Shown: one piece after another, positions 2,880 through 26,034 of the stretch
How the letters are laid out: every line of letters starts with the position of its first letter
Numbering within the stretch: the first letter of the stretch is position 1
Origin: Chloroflexota bacterium
GTDB lineage: Bacteria > Chloroflexota > Anaerolineae > Anaerolineales > Villigracilaceae
Assembly (NCBI GenBank): GCA_016208355.1
Contig: JACQYE010000089.1
Span: 1 to 33,073, forward strand
Direction of reading: 5' to 3'
Length of the DNA stretch: 33,073 bases
Notes under the pieces: model-generated
Told to the model about the DNA's origin: nothing
Databases searched by the model: none
Seen by the model: the letters and a program-made list of their open reading frames with translations, nothing else
Translations under genes and position numbers: made by a program

Positions 2880-2939
2880 TACCCGCGCCGGTTGAAAAAA
2901 ATCACCCGGCGAAAATGCCGATAGGCGTATAATCACCCC

Positions 2940-4055
2940 ATGCCGCCCCTCCTCCCGCCGCCCGTCTGGATAGACCAGCCCGCAGACCTCCAACGCCTCG
3001 CCCGAGAACTGCTCGACCAGCCGCGCCTGGCGGTGGATACCGAGTCCAACTCCCTGCACGCCTACCACGAGCAAGTCTGCCTCATCCAATTCTCCACCCC
3101 AGAAACCGATTACCTGCTCGACCCGCTCGACCTCGCCGATCTCTCCCTGCTGGCCCCCTTGTTCGCCAACCCCAAAATCGAAAAAGTTTTTCACGCCGTC
3201 GAATACGACATCATTTGCCTGAAGCGCGATTTCGGCTTCGAGGTCGTCAACATCTTCGACACGATGCAGAGCGCCCGCATCCTCGGCTACCCCCAGGTCG
3301 GCCTGGATGCCTTGCTCGGTCTGAAATTCAACCTTCAAGTGGACAAGCGTTACCAGAAAGCCGACTGGGCGTACCGTCCACTCACGCCGGAGATGTTGAA
3401 CTACGCCCGCCTCGATACGCATTACCTGCTGCCCCTGCGCGACATCCTGCAGGCCGAACTGGAAGCCGCCGGTCGCTGGGACCTGGCGCGCGAAGAATTC
3501 GTCCGTATGGCAAAATTGAACGGGAACGGAAAAGCCGAAGTCCCCTCCTGGCAGCGGGTGACCGGAGCGCACAAACTGGCTGCTGACCAGTTGGCCGTCC
3601 TCAAGGAACTGTGCGCCTGGCGTGACCAGACCGCCGAACATCTGGCGCGGCCGACCTTCAAAGTCGTGGATGACAGGCGGCTGGCCGCGATTGCCGCCGC
3701 CAAACCGGAACGGCCAGACGAATTCAAAGATATTCTCACTGATTACCAGCGCAGGCGGTTCGGGACTGAGATCCTGCGCGCCGTTAGACGCGGCCTGGAA
3801 TCCCCGCCGATTTCCCGACCGCGGCCAGTGCGGCCGAAGCAGGCTTACATTGACCGGGCGAACGCCCTCGGCCAGTGGCGCAAACAACTTGGGCAGAAAC
3901 TCCACATGGAATCCGACATCATCCTGCCCAAAGCCTGGATGCAGGCCATCGCCGAACAAAACCCGCGCACCCGCGAGGAACTGGCTGCCCTGATGCCCGA
4001 GTCGCCGTGGCGGCTGGAAAACTTCGGCGAGGAAATCCTGAAAGCAATTCTGTAG
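2940..4055 (+). CDS. rnd: Ribonuclease D (3'-5' exonuclease with HRDC domain)
   Basis: LAVDTESNSLHAYHEQVCLIQFS (DEDD Exo I), HAVEYDIICLKRDFGF, YARLDTHYLL (Exo III), HRDC-like C-terminal region. Confidence 0.92.
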   Translation: MPPLLPPPVWIDQPADLQRLARELLDQPRLAVDTESNSLHAYHEQVCLIQFSTPETDYLLDPLDLADLSLLAPLFANPKIEKVFHAVEYDIICLKRDFGFEVVNIFDTMQSARILGYPQVGLDALLGLKFNLQVDKRYQKADWAYRPLTPEMLNYARLDTHYLLPLRDILQAELEAAGRWDLAREEFVRMAKLNGNGKAEVPSWQRVTGAHKLAADQLAVLKELCAWRDQTAEHLARPTFKVVDDRRLAAIAAAKPERPDEFKDILTDYQRRRFGTEILRAVRRGLESPPISRPRPVRPKQAYIDRANALGQWRKQLGQKLHMESDIILPKAWMQAIAEQNPRTREELAALMPESPWRLENFGEEILKAIL

Positions 4056-6525: not shown

Positions 6526-7226
6526 ATGGACATTAACCTTTCCATTGACACCAATCTTGTTCTTAAAATTCTGACTGCTTTCATCCGCTCGGAGATCACC
6601 CGCGTTGGCTATTCGCGCGCAGTGGTGAATCTCTCCGGCGGGTTGGATTCCGCTGTCTCGTGCGTGCTGGCCGTCAAAGCCCTAGGCGCGGAGAATGTAC
6701 TGGCCCTGCGCCTGCCATATAAATCCTCAGCCCAGGATTCGCTCGATGACGCCCAACTGCTGATTGACCAGACCGGCATCCGGTCGCTGACCATCCCCAT
6801 CACAGACATGGTTGACCCACTGATCGCCCGCGAACCGGCTACACCACGCTCTACGGCGACTCGGCCTGTGCCCTAAACCCAATCGGCGACCTCTACAAGA
6901 CCCAGGTGCGGCAACTGGCGCGGGCGCTCGAAATCCCGGAGTCGATCATCACCAAGCCTCCCTCCGCGGACCTATGGGCCGGCCAGACCGACGAGGGCGA
7001 ACTCGGCTTCACGTACGAGGAAGTGGACAAATTGCTCTACCTGCTCGTGGACCAGCGCTTCCGCCCCGAAGAATGTATGGAAGTCGGGTTTGATGAGACC
7101 TTCGTCCGCAAGGTGGTGGAACGCATCCGCAAGAACCAGTTCAAGCGCGTCCTGCCGCCCATCGCCAAACTCTCCAGCCGTACGGTGGGCTACGACTTTC
7201 TGTACTTGCGAGACTGGGGAACGTAA
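6526..7226 (+). pseudogene. nadE: NAD+ synthetase, interrupted by internal deletion/frameshift
   Basis: Frame 1: NLSGGLDSAVSCVLAVKALGAENVLALRLPYKSSAQDSLDDAQLL...MVDPLIARE (6526..~6835); resumes in another frame as GYTTLYGDSACALNPIGDLYKTQVRQLARALEIPESIITKPPSADLWAGQTDE (6837..7226). The normally intervening NaAD/ATP-binding segment is absent. Confidence 0.85.
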
Positions 7227-10140: not shown

Positions 10141-11358
10141 ATGCCGCTTCTCACCTGGCCGACCAAAGCATTACCGGACCCGCAGCCTGCCGCGCTGACC
10201 CTCGACTCGGTCACTTACCCGCGCGGCCTCGGCTACCCGGCCATGCCTCCCGATAATTCCCTCTACCTGGGGGAAAACTTGAGTGTGATGTCTGCCTTGC
10301 TGCCAGAATATGAGGGCAGGCTGGACTTGATCTACGTAGACCCGCCCTTTTTCACCAACAAACGCTTTTCAGCCCGCATCGGCCGAGGGGAAAACTCGCG
10401 CCGCCCGGACGAGTGGCAATTAGCCGAAGGGTACGCTGACCACTGGGACGATCTCGACTCCTATCTTGATTTCCTCTATCCCCGCCTGGCGTTGATGCAC
10501 CGCCTGCTCGCCCCGCACGGGACTCTGTACCTGCACCTCGACTGGCATGCAGACGCCTACGCCCGTCTCCTGCTCGACGAACTCTTCGGGCGCGAAAACC
10601 TGGTCAACGAGGTCATCTGGACATATCACGGGCCTTCGCCCATCCGGCGCGCCTTCAACCGCAAGCACGATACCATCCTCGTTTATGCCAAAGGCGGCGA
10701 TTACATCTTCAACGCCGATGCTGTACGTGAACCCTACAATCCGAGCACGGTAAAAACCTTTTGATCTTCTCCAAAGGCCGGGTTTGGCAAAATTCCCGAT
10801 CTGGAACGCGGCAAGGTCCCCGAGGACTGGTGGTATTTCCCGGTGATCGCCCGCCTGCACAACGAGCGCACAGGTTACCCCACACAAAAGCCTGAGGCCC
10901 TGCTGGAACGCATCCTGTTGGCCTCCTCCAATCCAGGTAGCCTGGTAGCCGATTTCTTCTGCGGTTCCGGGACATTCCCCCTCGTTGCCGCGCGGCATGG
11001 GCGGCGTTACCTGGCCTGCGACGCCACCTGGCGCGCCGTTCACACGGCACGCGTCCGCCTGCTGGCAGAATCCCGGCCATTCGCCTTGTGGCGAGAGGCA
11101 AAATCAGCGATCCCCTGCTCCCCTTCATCCCCGTCACTTCTTTCTTCTGGGACATCGGTCATCATCAACGACGCTCCTGAACTCGATTACTGGGAAGTGG
11201 ACCCTGACTGGGACGGGAAAACCTTCCGCAGCGCGGCCCAGGCGCGGCGTCCGAACCGTTCGGCTGAGATCCCGCTGGAAATCAAACTGCCCGTTGCGGG
11301 GGAGAATATCCGCATCCGGGCAGTCACGATTGATGGCAAACAAATCGAAATGAGTTGA
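10141..11358 (+). pseudogene. Site-specific DNA methyltransferase (N6/N4, beta-type order), interrupted by an in-frame TGA at 10762..10764
   Basis: Motif IV DLIYVDPPFFTNK upstream, motif I FFCGSGTFPLVAARHG downstream; both ORFs share the same reading frame and the intervening codons read SSPKAGFGKIPDLERGKVPEDWWYFPV. Confidence 0.88.
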
Positions 11359-19903: not shown

Positions 19904-19935
19904 GTAAGAATGCAAGGAGAAATAAAAATTACGCA

Positions 19936-19962
19936 AAGCCTCCCGGCTTGGGAGGCTTTTAT
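19936..19962 (+). terminator. Rho-independent terminator after dedA-like gene
   Basis: AAGCCTCCC-ggctt-GGGAGGCTT TTATT. Confidence 0.85.
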
Positions 19963-20074
19963 TGTTGTGAGGATGCGTACCAAATTGCAATCAATATCTG
20001 GTGGAGGTGCTATAATTTCAGCAGGCATTCCAATATCATGTCACGGCAAAAGGGATATTTTAATTGGGAAAACT

Positions 20075-21013
20075 ATGAAGAACTATTTAATTAATCTGTT
20101 GTGCTGTATAGGTTTTGCTCTGGAAGTATGGCTATTCGGAACGACAAGCACCCGGCAGCAACTTAATCGTCAAATTAAAAACAGCTTATTCCTGACCCTG
20201 CTCTTTTCGTTTTCAATCGTTTTTTTCATCGGTTGCCTGACTTTGAGTCATTTTTTATGGAAATCCACTGGTTTCTCCGATGCGGTCCTCGCTGACTTTA
20301 GCATTTATTCATTACTTGAGGACATTTCGGTTGTGCCTTTATATTTGTGGTGCGGACTATCTCTTTTCAGTCTTGGATTTTGTCTGATTAATAGGTCGCC
20401 GTACTTGCTGCCGAAAAAATTCCGCAGCCGTCCTTTTGAGGGTGTTATGTTCATCTGGGGATTTATTTCGCAAGTGCTTCTCGCTGCTATAGTCGGGATC
20501 ACATTGCGAGCAAATTACTTAGCTCGGCCCCACCTTGAAAAACCTTCATCAGTTTACATGCTCTATGAGAATGTGCTAATTCTAGGGGATAGAACCTACA
20601 GCGTGCCTGAATGGGTTTTCAATCTCGGATTCTATCCCATCGCAGAAGTATCCGCTGCCCGATGGGGTGACGACAGCATCGCGGTCGAACCCCTTTCGCG
20701 AGATAGCCTAACACGCGCCCTCCAGAACGGTCGCCTAGTCTTTATCGCTTCCCATGGAAGTTATCTAGGGGGAGCCATTTCTTTATCACCCAATGAAGTT
20801 TTGTATCCTGTAGATGTTTTTTTAATGGGAGGAACCGGGTCAAACCTGCAATTAGTCTATATTGCTGGGTGTAATGCAGGAAACTTGGCTGATGAGTGGC
20901 AATTGTTTCTTGCCCCGGCGCAAGTGATTGTCTTTGATCGGCTTTCCGCAATCGAAGAACACATATACTGGTTATGGTTTCGCGGCCCGAAGGTGGTATC
21001 TAGTTTAAGATGA
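20075..21013 (+). CDS. Membrane protein with C-terminal CHAT/caspase-like (clan CD) domain, putative
   Basis: About four hydrophobic helices, then RLVFIASHGSYLGGAISLSPNEVLYPVDV...LQLVYIAGCNAGNLADEWQLFLAPAQVIVFDRLSAIEEHIYWLWF; His-Gly after a hydrophobic strand and Cys in an AGCNAG context resemble CHAT catalytic motifs. Confidence 0.55.
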   Translation: MKNYLINLLCCIGFALEVWLFGTTSTRQQLNRQIKNSLFLTLLFSFSIVFFIGCLTLSHFLWKSTGFSDAVLADFSIYSLLEDISVVPLYLWCGLSLFSLGFCLINRSPYLLPKKFRSRPFEGVMFIWGFISQVLLAAIVGITLRANYLARPHLEKPSSVYMLYENVLILGDRTYSVPEWVFNLGFYPIAEVSAARWGDDSIAVEPLSRDSLTRALQNGRLVFIASHGSYLGGAISLSPNEVLYPVDVFLMGGTGSNLQLVYIAGCNAGNLADEWQLFLAPAQVIVFDRLSAIEEHIYWLWFRGPKVVSSLR

Positions 21014-21044: not shown

Positions 21045-21074
21045 GAAGAGGCATCCCTTTTGGGAAGCCTCTTC
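21045..21074. terminator. Hairpin between convergent genes (bidirectional terminator candidate)
   Basis: GAAGAGGC-atCCCttttGGGaa-GCCTCTTC. Confidence 0.7.
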
Positions 21075-21126: not shown

Positions 21127-24100
21127 TCACGGCACCAACCTCAAATGTGACTCTGTATTACTGATCACTGCCTGTTCGTTCCAGAGCATCGGGTAGTATT
21201 GCACATCTGTCCAGAGGGGCGCCAGGTCAATATAGTGCGGGTGATAGGCATGACCGGACTGCCCGGTGGTATGCACCGTGACCGAGTTGCGCAGGTCGCC
21301 CAGGTCCACGATCATGCGCATGGACGGCAGCCAGTCCACCTCGAAGCCCAAGCCAACCGTCCAGCCGGTGGCGTTGACGATGGACTCGCCGCCTCCAGTG
21401 GGGAACGGGCCGCGGTTGAAGATGGATTCGATCAGGCCAATGCCGGACTTTCCGAGGGTGGCATTGCGGAAGGTGGCGGTATGCGCCTCGCCCCAAGCCG
21501 GCCACGCCTCCAGATTTTTGCCGTACTCCTCCTCCCCGCTTTCCACGGTTTCAGTAAAGGCACGCAGGAAGATGTCGTCGCGGGTCTCGACCACACCAGA
21601 AGTGGATAGATCATCCCACCAGGCGCTGTCCGGCTGCTGTATCAGGTTGCGCATCACTTCGTAGAAACGTGAACCGCCCTCCGGGAAAAAGTCTTCAGGG
21701 AAAGGCTCATCATAGAAGGTATCCAGCAGCAGGTTCGACCAAAAACGCTCGAATAACAGGGCAGCCTGGGAACCGGCCTGCTCGCGGTAGTCCCAGCCTG
21801 CCAGGAAAGCCTGGCGGACCTCGTCATTGCGCCCGTCCATCGGCAGGGACATCAGGAGTGGCACCATCACTTCAGCATTCAGGCTGGTCGAATCTCCCTG
21901 CATCTGCTGAATGTACGCCGTATCAATCGGGCCGGGGGCATTCTCGATCATCGCTGAAATACGTTCGGCGCGGAAGCCGTAGTCCCAATCCGTGGTGACC
22001 AGGTAGGGATAATCGCGCGGCACGGACTGGTTGTTGGCCGTGACGATGTACCCGGATTCAGGGTTGAACACGAACGGTAGTTCCTCGAATGGAATGTAAC
22101 CGGTCCATTCGTACTCATCCGTCCAGCCGGGCACGGGCAGGGTTCCGTCGCCGTTCCGGCGGATGGGGACATTGCCCGGCATCTGGTAGCCGATATTCCC
22201 ATCCACATCGGCGTAAAGAAGGTTCTGGGCCGGGACCGTGAAATTGCGCGCCGCGTCCCGGAAATCCTCCCAGTCCTGGGCTTTGTTGAAACCCCAGATG
22301 GCCTCGAAGATGTGAGCCGGTTCGAGCGCTGTCCAGCGCAGGGCGATGACGAAGTTGTCAGGTAAATCCATCCCGGCCTGTTCCCCGAATTCTTCCAGCC
22401 CGTAGACCTCCGAAATGACCGGACCGTGCCGCGTGGAGCGGACGGTCACCTCCACCGGCTCCCCCCCGCCAACCTGGATGGTCTCGGTGCGGGTCTCGAA
22501 GTCCACCCACTGGCCGTTGACCTCGTACTGGTTCGGATTGTCGGGATTGACCTTCTCGACATACAGGTCCATCACGTCCGGGCCGTTGTTGGTGAAACCC
22601 CAGGCGATCCTGTCGTTGTGGCCGATGACCACACCCGGCACCCCGGCGAACGAGAAGCCGGCCACTTCGTAGGGACAGGCGTCGCTCTTCGGTTGGCAAT
22701 GCAACCCCACCTGGTACCAGATGGACGGCATTTGGATGCTCAAGTGCGGGTCGTTGGCAAGCAGGGGCATGCCGCTCTCGGTCAGTTCGCCGGAGATGGC
22801 CCAGGAGTTGGAGCCGATGCCCGTTCCCCCGGGCCCGAGGAGGAAATCCAAAAGCCCCAGGTTATAAGAGGCAGCCGACAGTGCAGAGTCAGCCGAAACG
22901 AGGGCCGCGCCGGTGGATTCCTGCGCGTCCGCGGCCGCCGCCGGGAATGTTTCAACGATCACCGGGTGGTCGGATGGGTAGGCAGGATACAGGTCCGCGA
23001 GCTGCTCCGGGGTGAAGACTTTCATCAGGACGGCGCGCTCGATTTCCCCGTCAATGTTGCCGCGCAAGTCCCAGGCCATGGCCTTGGCCCAGGTCATGCT
23101 GTGGACCGGCGTCCAGGGTTCCGGTTCGTAGTCCGGCGTCAGGAGGCCCAGGATGGCATATTCCAGGCTGATGGCCGCGCCGGAATGGTCCGCCAGGTAG
23201 GCGTTGACGCCCTCCGAATAAGCGGTGAGGATGGCGATGGCTTCCACACTGGAGGCGGCCACTTCCTGCTCGGCGATTTGCTCCCAACCCATGGTGCGCA
23301 GGAAGGCGTCGGTTTCCACCTGGTCGGCACCGAACATTTCAGAGAGTCGCCCCGAGCCGATGTGACGCCAAAAGTCCATCTGCCAGAAGCGATCCTGGGC
23401 ATGGACATAGCCCTGGGCAAAGAACAAGTCGTGCAGGCTGGAGGCGTAGATATGCGGAACGCCGTACCCATCACGGTAGATATCCACCTCGCCGTCGAGA
23501 CCAGACAATTGGATTTCTCCTTCCACCAATGGGAAGGAACGCCGGGCTGTGTAGACGCCCAGCACCGACAAAACGATGGCAAGCACGAGGAGTATCCCCA
23601 GCCCGCGCACCAGGAAACGTTGGAACTTTTCAGACATTATTCCTGCCGAGGCATCGTGCAGCACAGCCGGGGGATAATAGCCGCGGCTGACGAACCCGCC
23701 CAGCCAGGCGCGTTCGTTGACCGCCGCCAGCAGCGCCTGGTAAATATCAGCCTGCGCCTGCAAACTGACCGCCCTCTGCGTAATCCCCGGCTGGAGAACC
23801 GCCCGCGACGGGATCCAGTCCATCGCCGCGCCGTCCGCCGAGGGGTAGGCCGCGGCAATGATGACCGGCTTGCCCAGCGCGGCCTGGAAAGGCTGGATCT
23901 CGTTATCCAAAAGCGCACCCGCCGCCACGCGCAACTCGTCCACACCTGGGGAAGTCGAGCCGCTCAAAGGCGCATACCAGAGCAGGTAGACGCCGTCCAG
24001 GTCGCGGGCGAAGGTCGGGGTGGAGGCCAGGTCATCGGGATAGGAGACAGCCCACAGGATGCTCCCGCCGTAATGGGCGCGCACCTCGGCCAGGATGGCG

Positions 24101-26034
24101 CGCCAGCGCGTCTCCGCATCGGCCGGGACCCCGGAACTGCTCCCGTTGATCAGTCCGCCGGGCAGGGCCGGGACGACCCACTCCCCGCCTAGGATGAGCG
24201 CCTGCGCCCCGGACTGGGCCGCAAGGTCGGCGTGGTAGACAGCGAAGGCCTCGTAACGGTCGAACCAGGTGTTCCACCAAGCTGAATCGTGCGGCGCGGA
24301 CTGCCACCAGGCATCCATGTCGGCGGGCAGGCTGGCAGACGGGAAGAGCGCCGCGTTCAGGTTGAGGGCGCGCGCCCCGGCGACAAAATGGATCGTATCG
24401 GTGAAGAGCGGGTCTGCGCCCGGCAGGGGAGAAAAGACGAACGGGCTGGCCCGGCTGGCGGTCCAGGTGGGTGTGAGCACCAGCCAGTTGGAGTACAGGG
24501 CCTGCACGTTCAATACCGCCTGCGGCATCCAGGCCTGCCAGGTCGGGTTGCCGGTGGGCAGGAACTCGATCCCGGCCCAGAAGCCGGCGGCGCGCGGCGT
24601 GACAGCCAGTCCCACCAGCGAAGATGGCTGGAGCGTTTCCAGCCACATCCAGTCGGTGACCGTATCCTGCAAATCCTGCGGAGCCAGGCTGGAGGAGACC
24701 GGGCGGCCCACCCGTCCCGGGCCGGTCTGGACATCGTCGGCCAGGCCGCACTGGTCGTTGCGGCAATAGCGATATTCGAAGGCGGTAAGTATGTTGAGCG
24801 GCCCGTAGAGTTGGTAGGTCCAGCGATTATTGCCCATCGGCCACATCGGGATGGGCACCGTCCAGCCGTAGGGGTTGAACTGGATGGAAATGATGTCGGT
24901 GACAGGCGTTTCAGACGGGACGCTGACCTCGAACAGGATGGGCGAGGAAGTACCGGCCTGCCAGCTGGAGACAAAATCCTGCACCTGGACGACACTCTGC
25001 CCGGCAGGGACGATCAACTGGCGGAGGACGAACGCGCCGTCGGAGGCATGCTCGGCATTCCAGAAACCGTCGCCGAGGGTATATTTATAGCGGATGTCGG
25101 CCCCGGCAGGAAGCATGAGCGAGAGGGTATAGCGGCCGTCTCCCAGAGGGGAGAGGACGGGCATCCGGGAGGCCACGCTGCTCAAGCCTCCGTCGAGGTC
25201 GCCGTAAGTGTTGCCGAGGGTGTACAGGTTACCCGCCAGCCGGATGGGAGTATTCGCGATGGTATTATCCGGCACGCTGACGGTGAAAATCACATTCACA
25301 AATGAAGCGGCAACCAGGGAAATATTCGCAGGGGTGGTTTTGTCTTCCACCACGGTAGCCCCCTGCTGGAAAATCTGGAAGGAACCATCGAGGGCATAGG
25401 CCACCAGGTTGTGCGTGCCAGCGGGCAGGCCCTCGATCACGTACGCGCCGGTCGAGTCGGTCAGGGTCTGCTGCCCGCCGACGGCGATGAGGATATTGGG
25501 GAGCGGACTGCTGTCCGCGGCGTTGACGACCTTCCCGGCAATGCGCCCGGTGGGCGCGGCGAACAGGCTGTCGGTCCAGGAAGAGACGATGTCCTGCACC
25601 GTGCCGGGCGCCGAGACGGCGTACAGGCGGTAGCGCACGGCTTTCTCGGACGAGTCGTCTTCCAGGATGGGCAGGGCCGACTGGCGCAGGTAGCGGTACT
25701 CGACCACACTGCCGACCGGGAAGGGCAGGGTCAAAGTGTAATGCAGGGTATCCATGCCCTGCATGGTATAGTTGACCGGGTTCAAGCCGAGACCGGTCAC
25801 CTCGTCCACCACGCTCAAGTAGAGGGTCTCGCCAGGCAAGAGCGGGGAAGGCAGGGTGACGTTGAAGGTAACGGGGGCCGCAGGCGTGGCGGTGGGGGTA
25901 GGACCGGGCGGGAATGTGGGAGTCTTGGTGGTTGTCAGGCCGGGGATGTCCACCAGCGAGAAAGTACAGGCATTCAGTAAAAGGACGCTGACAATGGCAA
26001 GGGTGAAAATGGTTTTCTTTTGGTGGCGGGTCAT
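21127..26034 (-). CDS. Large lipoprotein: CBM/E-set-like modules plus glycoside-hydrolase-like barrel, fused in frame to a full-length penicillin acylase family protein
   Basis: N-terminal lipobox LLLNAC and Thr/Pro linker; repeated beta-sandwich-like modules, carboxypeptidase-regulatory-like GRIAGKVVNAADSSPLPNILIAVGG; GH-like region with LGGEWVVPALPGG; from 23637 downward MSEKFQRFLVRGLGILLVLAIVLSVLGVYTARRSFP...GGTGIGSNSWAISG (acylase nucleophile Ser). Confidence 0.85.
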   Translation of the reverse strand: MTRHQKKTIFTLAIVSVLLLNACTFSLVDIPGLTTTKTPTFPPGPTPTATPAAPVTFNVTLPSPLLPGETLYLSVVDEVTGLGLNPVNYTMQGMDTLHYTLTLPFPVGSVVEYRYLRQSALPILEDDSSEKAVRYRLYAVSAPGTVQDIVSSWTDSLFAAPTGRIAGKVVNAADSSPLPNILIAVGGQQTLTDSTGAYVIEGLPAGTHNLVAYALDGSFQIFQQGATVVEDKTTPANISLVAASFVNVIFTVSVPDNTIANTPIRLAGNLYTLGNTYGDLDGGLSSVASRMPVLSPLGDGRYTLSLMLPAGADIRYKYTLGDGFWNAEHASDGAFVLRQLIVPAGQSVVQVQDFVSSWQAGTSSPILFEVSVPSETPVTDIISIQFNPYGWTVPIPMWPMGNNRWTYQLYGPLNILTAFEYRYCRNDQCGLADDVQTGPGRVGRPVSSSLAPQDLQDTVTDWMWLETLQPSSLVGLAVTPRAAGFWAGIEFLPTGNPTWQAWMPQAVLNVQALYSNWLVLTPTWTASRASPFVFSPLPGADPLFTDTIHFVAGARALNLNAALFPSASLPADMDAWWQSAPHDSAWWNTWFDRYEAFAVYHADLAAQSGAQALILGGEWVVPALPGGLINGSSSGVPADAETRWRAILAEVRAHYGGSILWAVSYPDDLASTPTFARDLDGVYLLWYAPLSGSTSPGVDELRVAAGALLDNEIQPFQAALGKPVIIAAAYPSADGAAMDWIPSRAVLQPGITQRAVSLQAQADIYQALLAAVNERAWLGGFVSRGYYPPAVLHDASAGIMSEKFQRFLVRGLGILLVLAIVLSVLGVYTARRSFPLVEGEIQLSGLDGEVDIYRDGYGVPHIYASSLHDLFFAQGYVHAQDRFWQMDFWRHIGSGRLSEMFGADQVETDAFLRTMGWEQIAEQEVAASSVEAIAILTAYSEGVNAYLADHSGAAISLEYAILGLLTPDYEPEPWTPVHSMTWAKAMAWDLRGNIDGEIERAVLMKVFTPEQLADLYPAYPSDHPVIVETFPAAAADAQESTGAALVSADSALSAASYNLGLLDFLLGPGGTGIGSNSWAISGELTESGMPLLANDPHLSIQMPSIWYQVGLHCQPKSDACPYEVAGFSFAGVPGVVIGHNDRIAWGFTNNGPDVMDLYVEKVNPDNPNQYEVNGQWVDFETRTETIQVGGGEPVEVTVRSTRHGPVISEVYGLEEFGEQAGMDLPDNFVIALRWTALEPAHIFEAIWGFNKAQDWEDFRDAARNFTVPAQNLLYADVDGNIGYQMPGNVPIRRNGDGTLPVPGWTDEYEWTGYIPFEELPFVFNPESGYIVTANNQSVPRDYPYLVTTDWDYGFRAERISAMIENAPGPIDTAYIQQMQGDSTSLNAEVMVPLLMSLPMDGRNDEVRQAFLAGWDYREQAGSQAALLFERFWSNLLLDTFYDEPFPEDFFPEGGSRFYEVMRNLIQQPDSAWWDDLSTSGVVETRDDIFLRAFTETVESGEEEYGKNLEAWPAWGEAHTATFRNATLGKSGIGLIESIFNRGPFPTGGGESIVNATGWTVGLGFEVDWLPSMRMIVDLGDLRNSVTVHTTGQSGHAYHPHYIDLAPLWTDVQYYPMLWNEQAVISNTESHLRLVP

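Follow-up and report, generated by a model that had tools for sequence, protein, structure and literature searches.

A compact membrane-anchored protein with a predicted CHAT/caspase-like domain, encoded by a single-gene insertion in a Chloroflexota genome

The window that we analyzed, a 33,073 nt stretch of a Chloroflexota contig, contains at 20075-21013, on the forward strand, a gene for a 312-residue membrane-anchored protein that resembles CHAT and other clan CD peptidases; its start codon aligns with the start of its homologues. An initial annotation had singled out this gene, and the open reading frame and the peptides it quoted (RLVFIASHG, LQLVYIAGCNAG and LADEWQLFLAPAQVIVFDRLSAIEEHIYWLWF) are all present at the positions claimed. 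So is the AT-rich islet it described: in 500 bp bins, GC content is 41%-48% over the gene and mostly 55%-69% around it. The gene itself has a GC content of 0.450 and a GC3 of 0.455, against GC3 values of 0.65-0.86 in 14 neighboring genes of the window. It is present as one copy in its own genome.

The islet had been taken to be bounded by two hairpin terminators. Both hairpins exist, but their assignment changes. The upstream one (19935-19959, forward strand) scores as an intrinsic terminator and is a flanking element outside the islet: a sister genome that has no islet keeps the same hairpin 3' of dedA, implying that it is dedA's own. The downstream one (21045-21074, read directly from the sequence and given no strand) has the form GAAGAGGCATCCC-TTTT-GGGAAGCCTCTTC and lies between the islet gene and a convergent gene at 21127-26034; the terminator scan gave it no T-tailed score. 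Reading the DNA directly, we also noted TGCTATAAT at 20008-20016 on the forward strand, a likely extended -10 promoter element (TGnTATAAT) that the consensus scan did not list, since that scan demands a -35 element at 16-18 nt. The islet gene thus probably carries an extended -10 element of its own.

Comparison with related genomes accounts for the islet. Six sister genomes of the genus have 0.13-0.23 kb between the ends of dedA and the convergent gene; the window has 1.2 kb there, occupied by the islet gene alone. Because both flanks are syntenic with the sisters, this is not a binning artefact: it is a recent insertion of a single gene between dedA and the convergent gene. Horizontal acquisition, originally offered as a possibility, is now well supported by the adjacency of the two flanking genes in the sisters and by the GC3 anomaly. 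The convergent gene (21127-26034, reverse strand) is itself a 1635-residue reading frame that joins a GH113-like/CarboxypepD-regulatory half (to residue ~802) to a penicillin amidase (849-1623). Of the sister genomes examined, five lack the amidase and have the N-terminal half ending beside dedA, and G008 has the amidase. An insertion hotspot seems to lie on the dedA side.

Elsewhere in the window, an NAD synthase gene (6526-7226, forward strand) is apparently split into two reading frames in different frames, by a frameshift or an assembly error; the first, 6526-6876, covers only positions 3-86 of the 242 in the NAD synthase profile. A short N6/N4 DNA methylase frame at 10141-10764 (forward strand) matches positions 2-125 of a 221-position profile and is possibly truncated. 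A 164 nt direct repeat, 88% identical between 968-1131 and 2928-3091, covers the start of an RNase D-like gene (2940-4055) and, in its other copy, the start of the reading frame at 962-1624; it looks like a partial duplication.

We then asked how widely the islet protein occurs. An order-level search of 400 genomes gave one further carrier, an Anaerolineales MAG (G046, JAFGSI01) whose protein is 36% identical. A two-member profile built from these proteins was needed to reach Firmicutes, where it recovered full-length copies in Petrocella sp. FN5 and an HGW-Firmicutes-2 MAG; searches around those two genomes yielded three more. The family therefore comprises seven full-length members, two from Anaerolineales and five from Firmicutes related to Petrocella, the others being 30%-36% identical to the window protein. 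Carriers make up 3 of the 22 genomes searched in Petrocella's family and 5 of 295 in its order, and 391 genomes of the class and 349 of the phylum added no true member. One class-wide match, in G1373, was rejected: it involves the transmembrane region only, in a reading frame between what we read as spore-germination cluster genes. With the window protein alone as query, scans of viral and genome collections returned nothing; two profiles (A1 and A4) found no family member in viral contigs, and tblastn with two of the members found none in plasmids or phages. With seven members spread over two phyla, the family is rare and patchy. Close pairs within it have dN/dS ratios of ~0.2-0.45, as for a real protein under purifying selection. 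This selection, together with full-length homologues in which a histidine and a cysteine are invariant, indicates more than a chance reading frame; the gene is real, and it is rare.

All seven members share one layout, three transmembrane helices followed by ~150 residues. By hydropathy, the helices of the window protein fall at residues ~38-56 (20186-20242), ~87-105 (20333-20389) and ~124-142 (20444-20500), all on the forward strand. The proposed catalytic residues, His227 in SHG and Cys266 in GCx[A/T]G, are invariant in all seven and separated by 35-40 residues, and Cys266 is the sole conserved cysteine. In the window, His227 (codon 20753-20755) belongs to an ASHG motif at 20747-20758, and Cys266 (codon 20870-20872) to a GCNAG motif, residues 265-269, at 20867-20881, both on the forward strand. 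Homologues that keep neither residue had been named as grounds for abandoning the assignment; both are retained in every homologue found. Positions invariant in all members include S226-H227-G228, G265-C266, G269, E274-W275, P281-A282, F287, R289, E295-H296 and W299-L300. In the Firmicutes copies the cysteine motif reads LSGCDTG, near the CHAT pattern SACxTG named in the initial annotation.

Conventional sequence searches do not recognize this family. Pfam, NCBIfam, PADLOC and PHROG contain no family that matches the window protein, even at loose thresholds, and PF12770, the CHAT family, does not match any of four members tested at E values up to 10. We therefore do not assign it to the CHAT family and describe it as CHAT-like within clan CD. 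The weak matches that did appear were discarded: those to NCBIfam and PHROGs were driven by the transmembrane helices, a Csx1/TM match in PADLOC from one family member was at chance level (E 0.099), and so were PDB sequence-profile matches to a periplasmic binding protein and a phosphoglycerate mutase (E 0.13-0.48), the latter covering little beyond 'AxHG'. More sensitive comparisons suggest a link to CHAT. When a four-member profile was run against 400 Chloroflexota genomes, its one match outside the family (E 8e-4 per genome) was a PF12770 CHAT protein, scoring 84 bits in Pfam. Aligning the family domain profile with CHAT domains from related genomes using hhalign gave a score of 37.8 and a probability of 74%, against a maximum of 18.4 in 100 column shuffles. 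Without the bait-selected CHAT protein, the score was 27.0 and the probability 14%, with a shuffle maximum of 21.5; reversed controls scored 13-14. In the alignment, the two HG motifs coincide, and so do the two cysteines.

The predicted structure leads in the same direction. A full-length AlphaFold2 model built from four sequences has a mean pLDDT of 59.8, low in the transmembrane region and 75-89 in the core (residues ~200-290). Residues 156-312 (20540-21010, forward strand) are modeled as a CHAT/caspase-hemoglobinase-like domain: beta1 (160-164), helix, beta2 (202-206), helix, beta3 (221-228, ending in SHG), a hairpin, beta4 (260-266, ending in Cys266), helix, beta5 (283-288) and helix. In clan CD, core strand beta3 has the catalytic His at its C-terminal end and beta4 has the catalytic Cys at its own (PMC4357240). 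The model shows the caspase-hemoglobinase order and places its proposed His and Cys correspondingly. No strand follows beta5 in the low-confidence C-terminal end, implying that beta6, the last strand of the six-stranded caspase core, is either missing or unmodeled. Foldseek against the PDB placed chains of the SAVED-CHAT structure 8tl0 first (probability 1.00, E 2.7e-4 to 8e-4), with caspase-3, -2 and -7, the GPI transamidase subunit PIG-K and legumain lower down; TM-scores are low (0.30), and GPCR matches driven by the membrane helices are interspersed in the list. The domain folded by itself yielded a poorer model, for which 8tl0 again ranked first at a nonsignificant E of 0.036. Against BFVD there was nothing below 0.001, and several of the named weak matches were viral caspases or metacaspases. 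A fold unrelated to clan CD would have told against the original suggestion; the predicted fold is clan CD-like, and its best match is a CHAT protease.

On which side of the membrane might this domain lie? About four hydrophobic helices had been described. Three are conserved in all seven members, but the fourth, N-terminal one is weak in six: its hydropathy is 1.85 in the window protein, which passes the cut, and at most 1.25 in the others. In every member, basic residues precede helix 1 and occur in the helix 2-3 loop, the helix 1-2 loop is close to neutral, and the C-terminal domain is acidic. Under the positive-inside rule, three helices with these charges would put the catalytic domain outside the cell. 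The protease domain is thus probably extracytoplasmic, as judged from hydropathy and charge; if the N-terminal segment does span the membrane, the domain would instead be cytosolic.

The gene's surroundings offer no obvious partner. Its neighbors in the window are housekeeping or unrelated genes, with no defence genes among them, and the homologues lie in differing neighborhoods that include GNAT acetyltransferases, beta-lactamase-like hydrolases, a Clp-type ATPase, DUF2339 and aro genes. The exception is the two closest Firmicutes copies, which have common surroundings. The earlier remark that no partner is evident extends to the homologues, whose neighborhoods have no gene in common. The window protein has no PADLOC match to a known anti-phage system, and there is no conserved defence neighborhood. 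One Firmicutes MAG has, ~2 kb from the homologue, a gene that strongly matches PDC-S26, a candidate defence family (L017:4479-5726). The rows of single genes at the Firmicutes loci raised the idea of integron cassettes, which we rejected after finding no repeated attC-like flanks in that MAG.

We read the protein as a compact, membrane-anchored variant of the CHAT/clan CD peptidases, with proteolysis, outward orientation and any role in defence inferred. What had been proposed was a compact caspase-like protease anchored in the membrane; the predicted clan CD-like fold and the invariant His and Cys are in keeping with that description, but its casting as an effector or regulator, and as part of an undescribed system, finds no support. 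Our preferred account, to which we give slightly better than even chances, is a self-contained, membrane-embedded cysteine endopeptidase of caspase/CHAT type with its domain outside; catalysis, orientation and substrate are all putative here. The three transmembrane helices would anchor the protein and present the 157-residue catalytic domain on the extracytoplasmic face, where His227, which ends one core strand, would activate Cys266, which ends the next, to cleave a protein on the membrane surface or close to it. The gene would travel alone with its own promoter, its recent landing site being the gap between dedA and the convergent penicillin-amidase gene. An active, outward-facing cysteine protease is most likely. 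A broader proposal, to which we give low odds, is that there are mobile, partner-free, membrane-embedded caspase-like proteases with an outside CHAT-type domain whose targets are proteins at the surface or entering the cell, as would suit enzymes of surface-level defence or competition, for instance.

The same fold could instead work in the cytoplasm, as a four-helix abortive-infection or stress effector that cuts a cytosolic or membrane target upon infection or damage. We consider this unlikely but worth keeping in view: CHAT proteases of known role are cytosolic defence enzymes (TPR-CHAT, SAVED-CHAT; PMC9729208, PMC11229360), the gene is horizontally acquired with homologues in variable regions, one of them near the PDC-S26 gene, and the window protein's N-terminal segment has sufficient hydrophobicity to span the membrane. 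However, that segment is too polar in six of the seven members and the charges favor an outside domain; nor is there a sensor domain, a common partner gene, a defence gene nearby in the window, or a phage or plasmid copy in the collections searched. A predicted outside-facing domain also suits an accessory enzyme that processes or transpeptidates exported peptides or surface proteins, comparable with clostripain, legumain or GPI transamidase. The presence of legumain and PIG-K chains in the Foldseek list is consistent with this, and a specific pocket is suggested by the W/E/H/W residues that, like the catalytic pair, never vary, but no conserved precursor peptide, sorting-signal protein or exporter lies beside the homologues, and we regard this role as rather improbable.

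Two further explanations would deny catalysis. The core as modeled has no visible beta6, and some cyanobacterial caspase homologues lack the active-site Cys or His (PMC3501461), so the domain might be catalytically dead and serve as a membrane receptor or scaffold; yet neither His nor Cys varies across two phyla, at 30%-36% identity, with Cys266 the only conserved cysteine, and a dead domain seems quite improbable. Alternatively, this may be an unrelated alpha/beta membrane protein that has HG and GC motifs by chance; the lack of a family match by sequence and the chance-level results from the PDB sequence search are in keeping with that. Against it, the Foldseek, profile-profile and conservation evidence agree, making coincidence very improbable indeed. 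We return, then, to the self-contained outward-facing protease.

How would such a protease relate to known enzymes? CHAT proteins (PF12770), which include TPR-CHAT/Csx29 and SAVED-CHAT, share with it a His in a strand-HG motif and a Cys in (S/A)GC-x-(T/A)G 35-40 residues on, a helix-strand-helix after the Cys, and a segment before HG that aligns with the family's EPL..(S/T)L..AL; SAVED-CHAT 8tl0 is also its best structural match. TPR-CHAT, with its dyad H585/C627 42 residues apart (PMC9729208), and SAVED-CHAT (PMC11229360) are sensor-coupled immune proteases, whereas the window family has three membrane helices, no TPR or SAVED sensor, and a very short domain (157 residues) with no beta6 in the model, to which PF12770 is blind. 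Its invariant W, GFY, EW, PA, F-x-R and EH..WL are peculiar to it. Bacterial metacaspases and orthocaspases (Peptidase C14) likewise combine the clan CD fold and a His/Cys pair, and a minority are membrane anchored: 15% of prokaryotic metacaspases have membrane helices, mostly a single N-terminal one (PMC3501461). The window family differs in its three conserved helices and has no Peptidase_C14 match. Legumain (C13) and PIG-K are clan CD peptidases that work outside the cytosol and appear in the Foldseek list, but we found no sequence similarity to them, and their structural scores are weaker than those for CHAT. Our literature search found no paper on a comparable family, which does not prove that none exists.

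Bacterial CHAT and caspase-like proteases are known mainly as cytosolic immune enzymes fused to sensors. A minimal CHAT-like domain on a polytopic anchor, free of sensor and partner and present in two phyla, would widen the sites at which this fold acts, and would offer a small, testable model for what a bare catalytic core needs.
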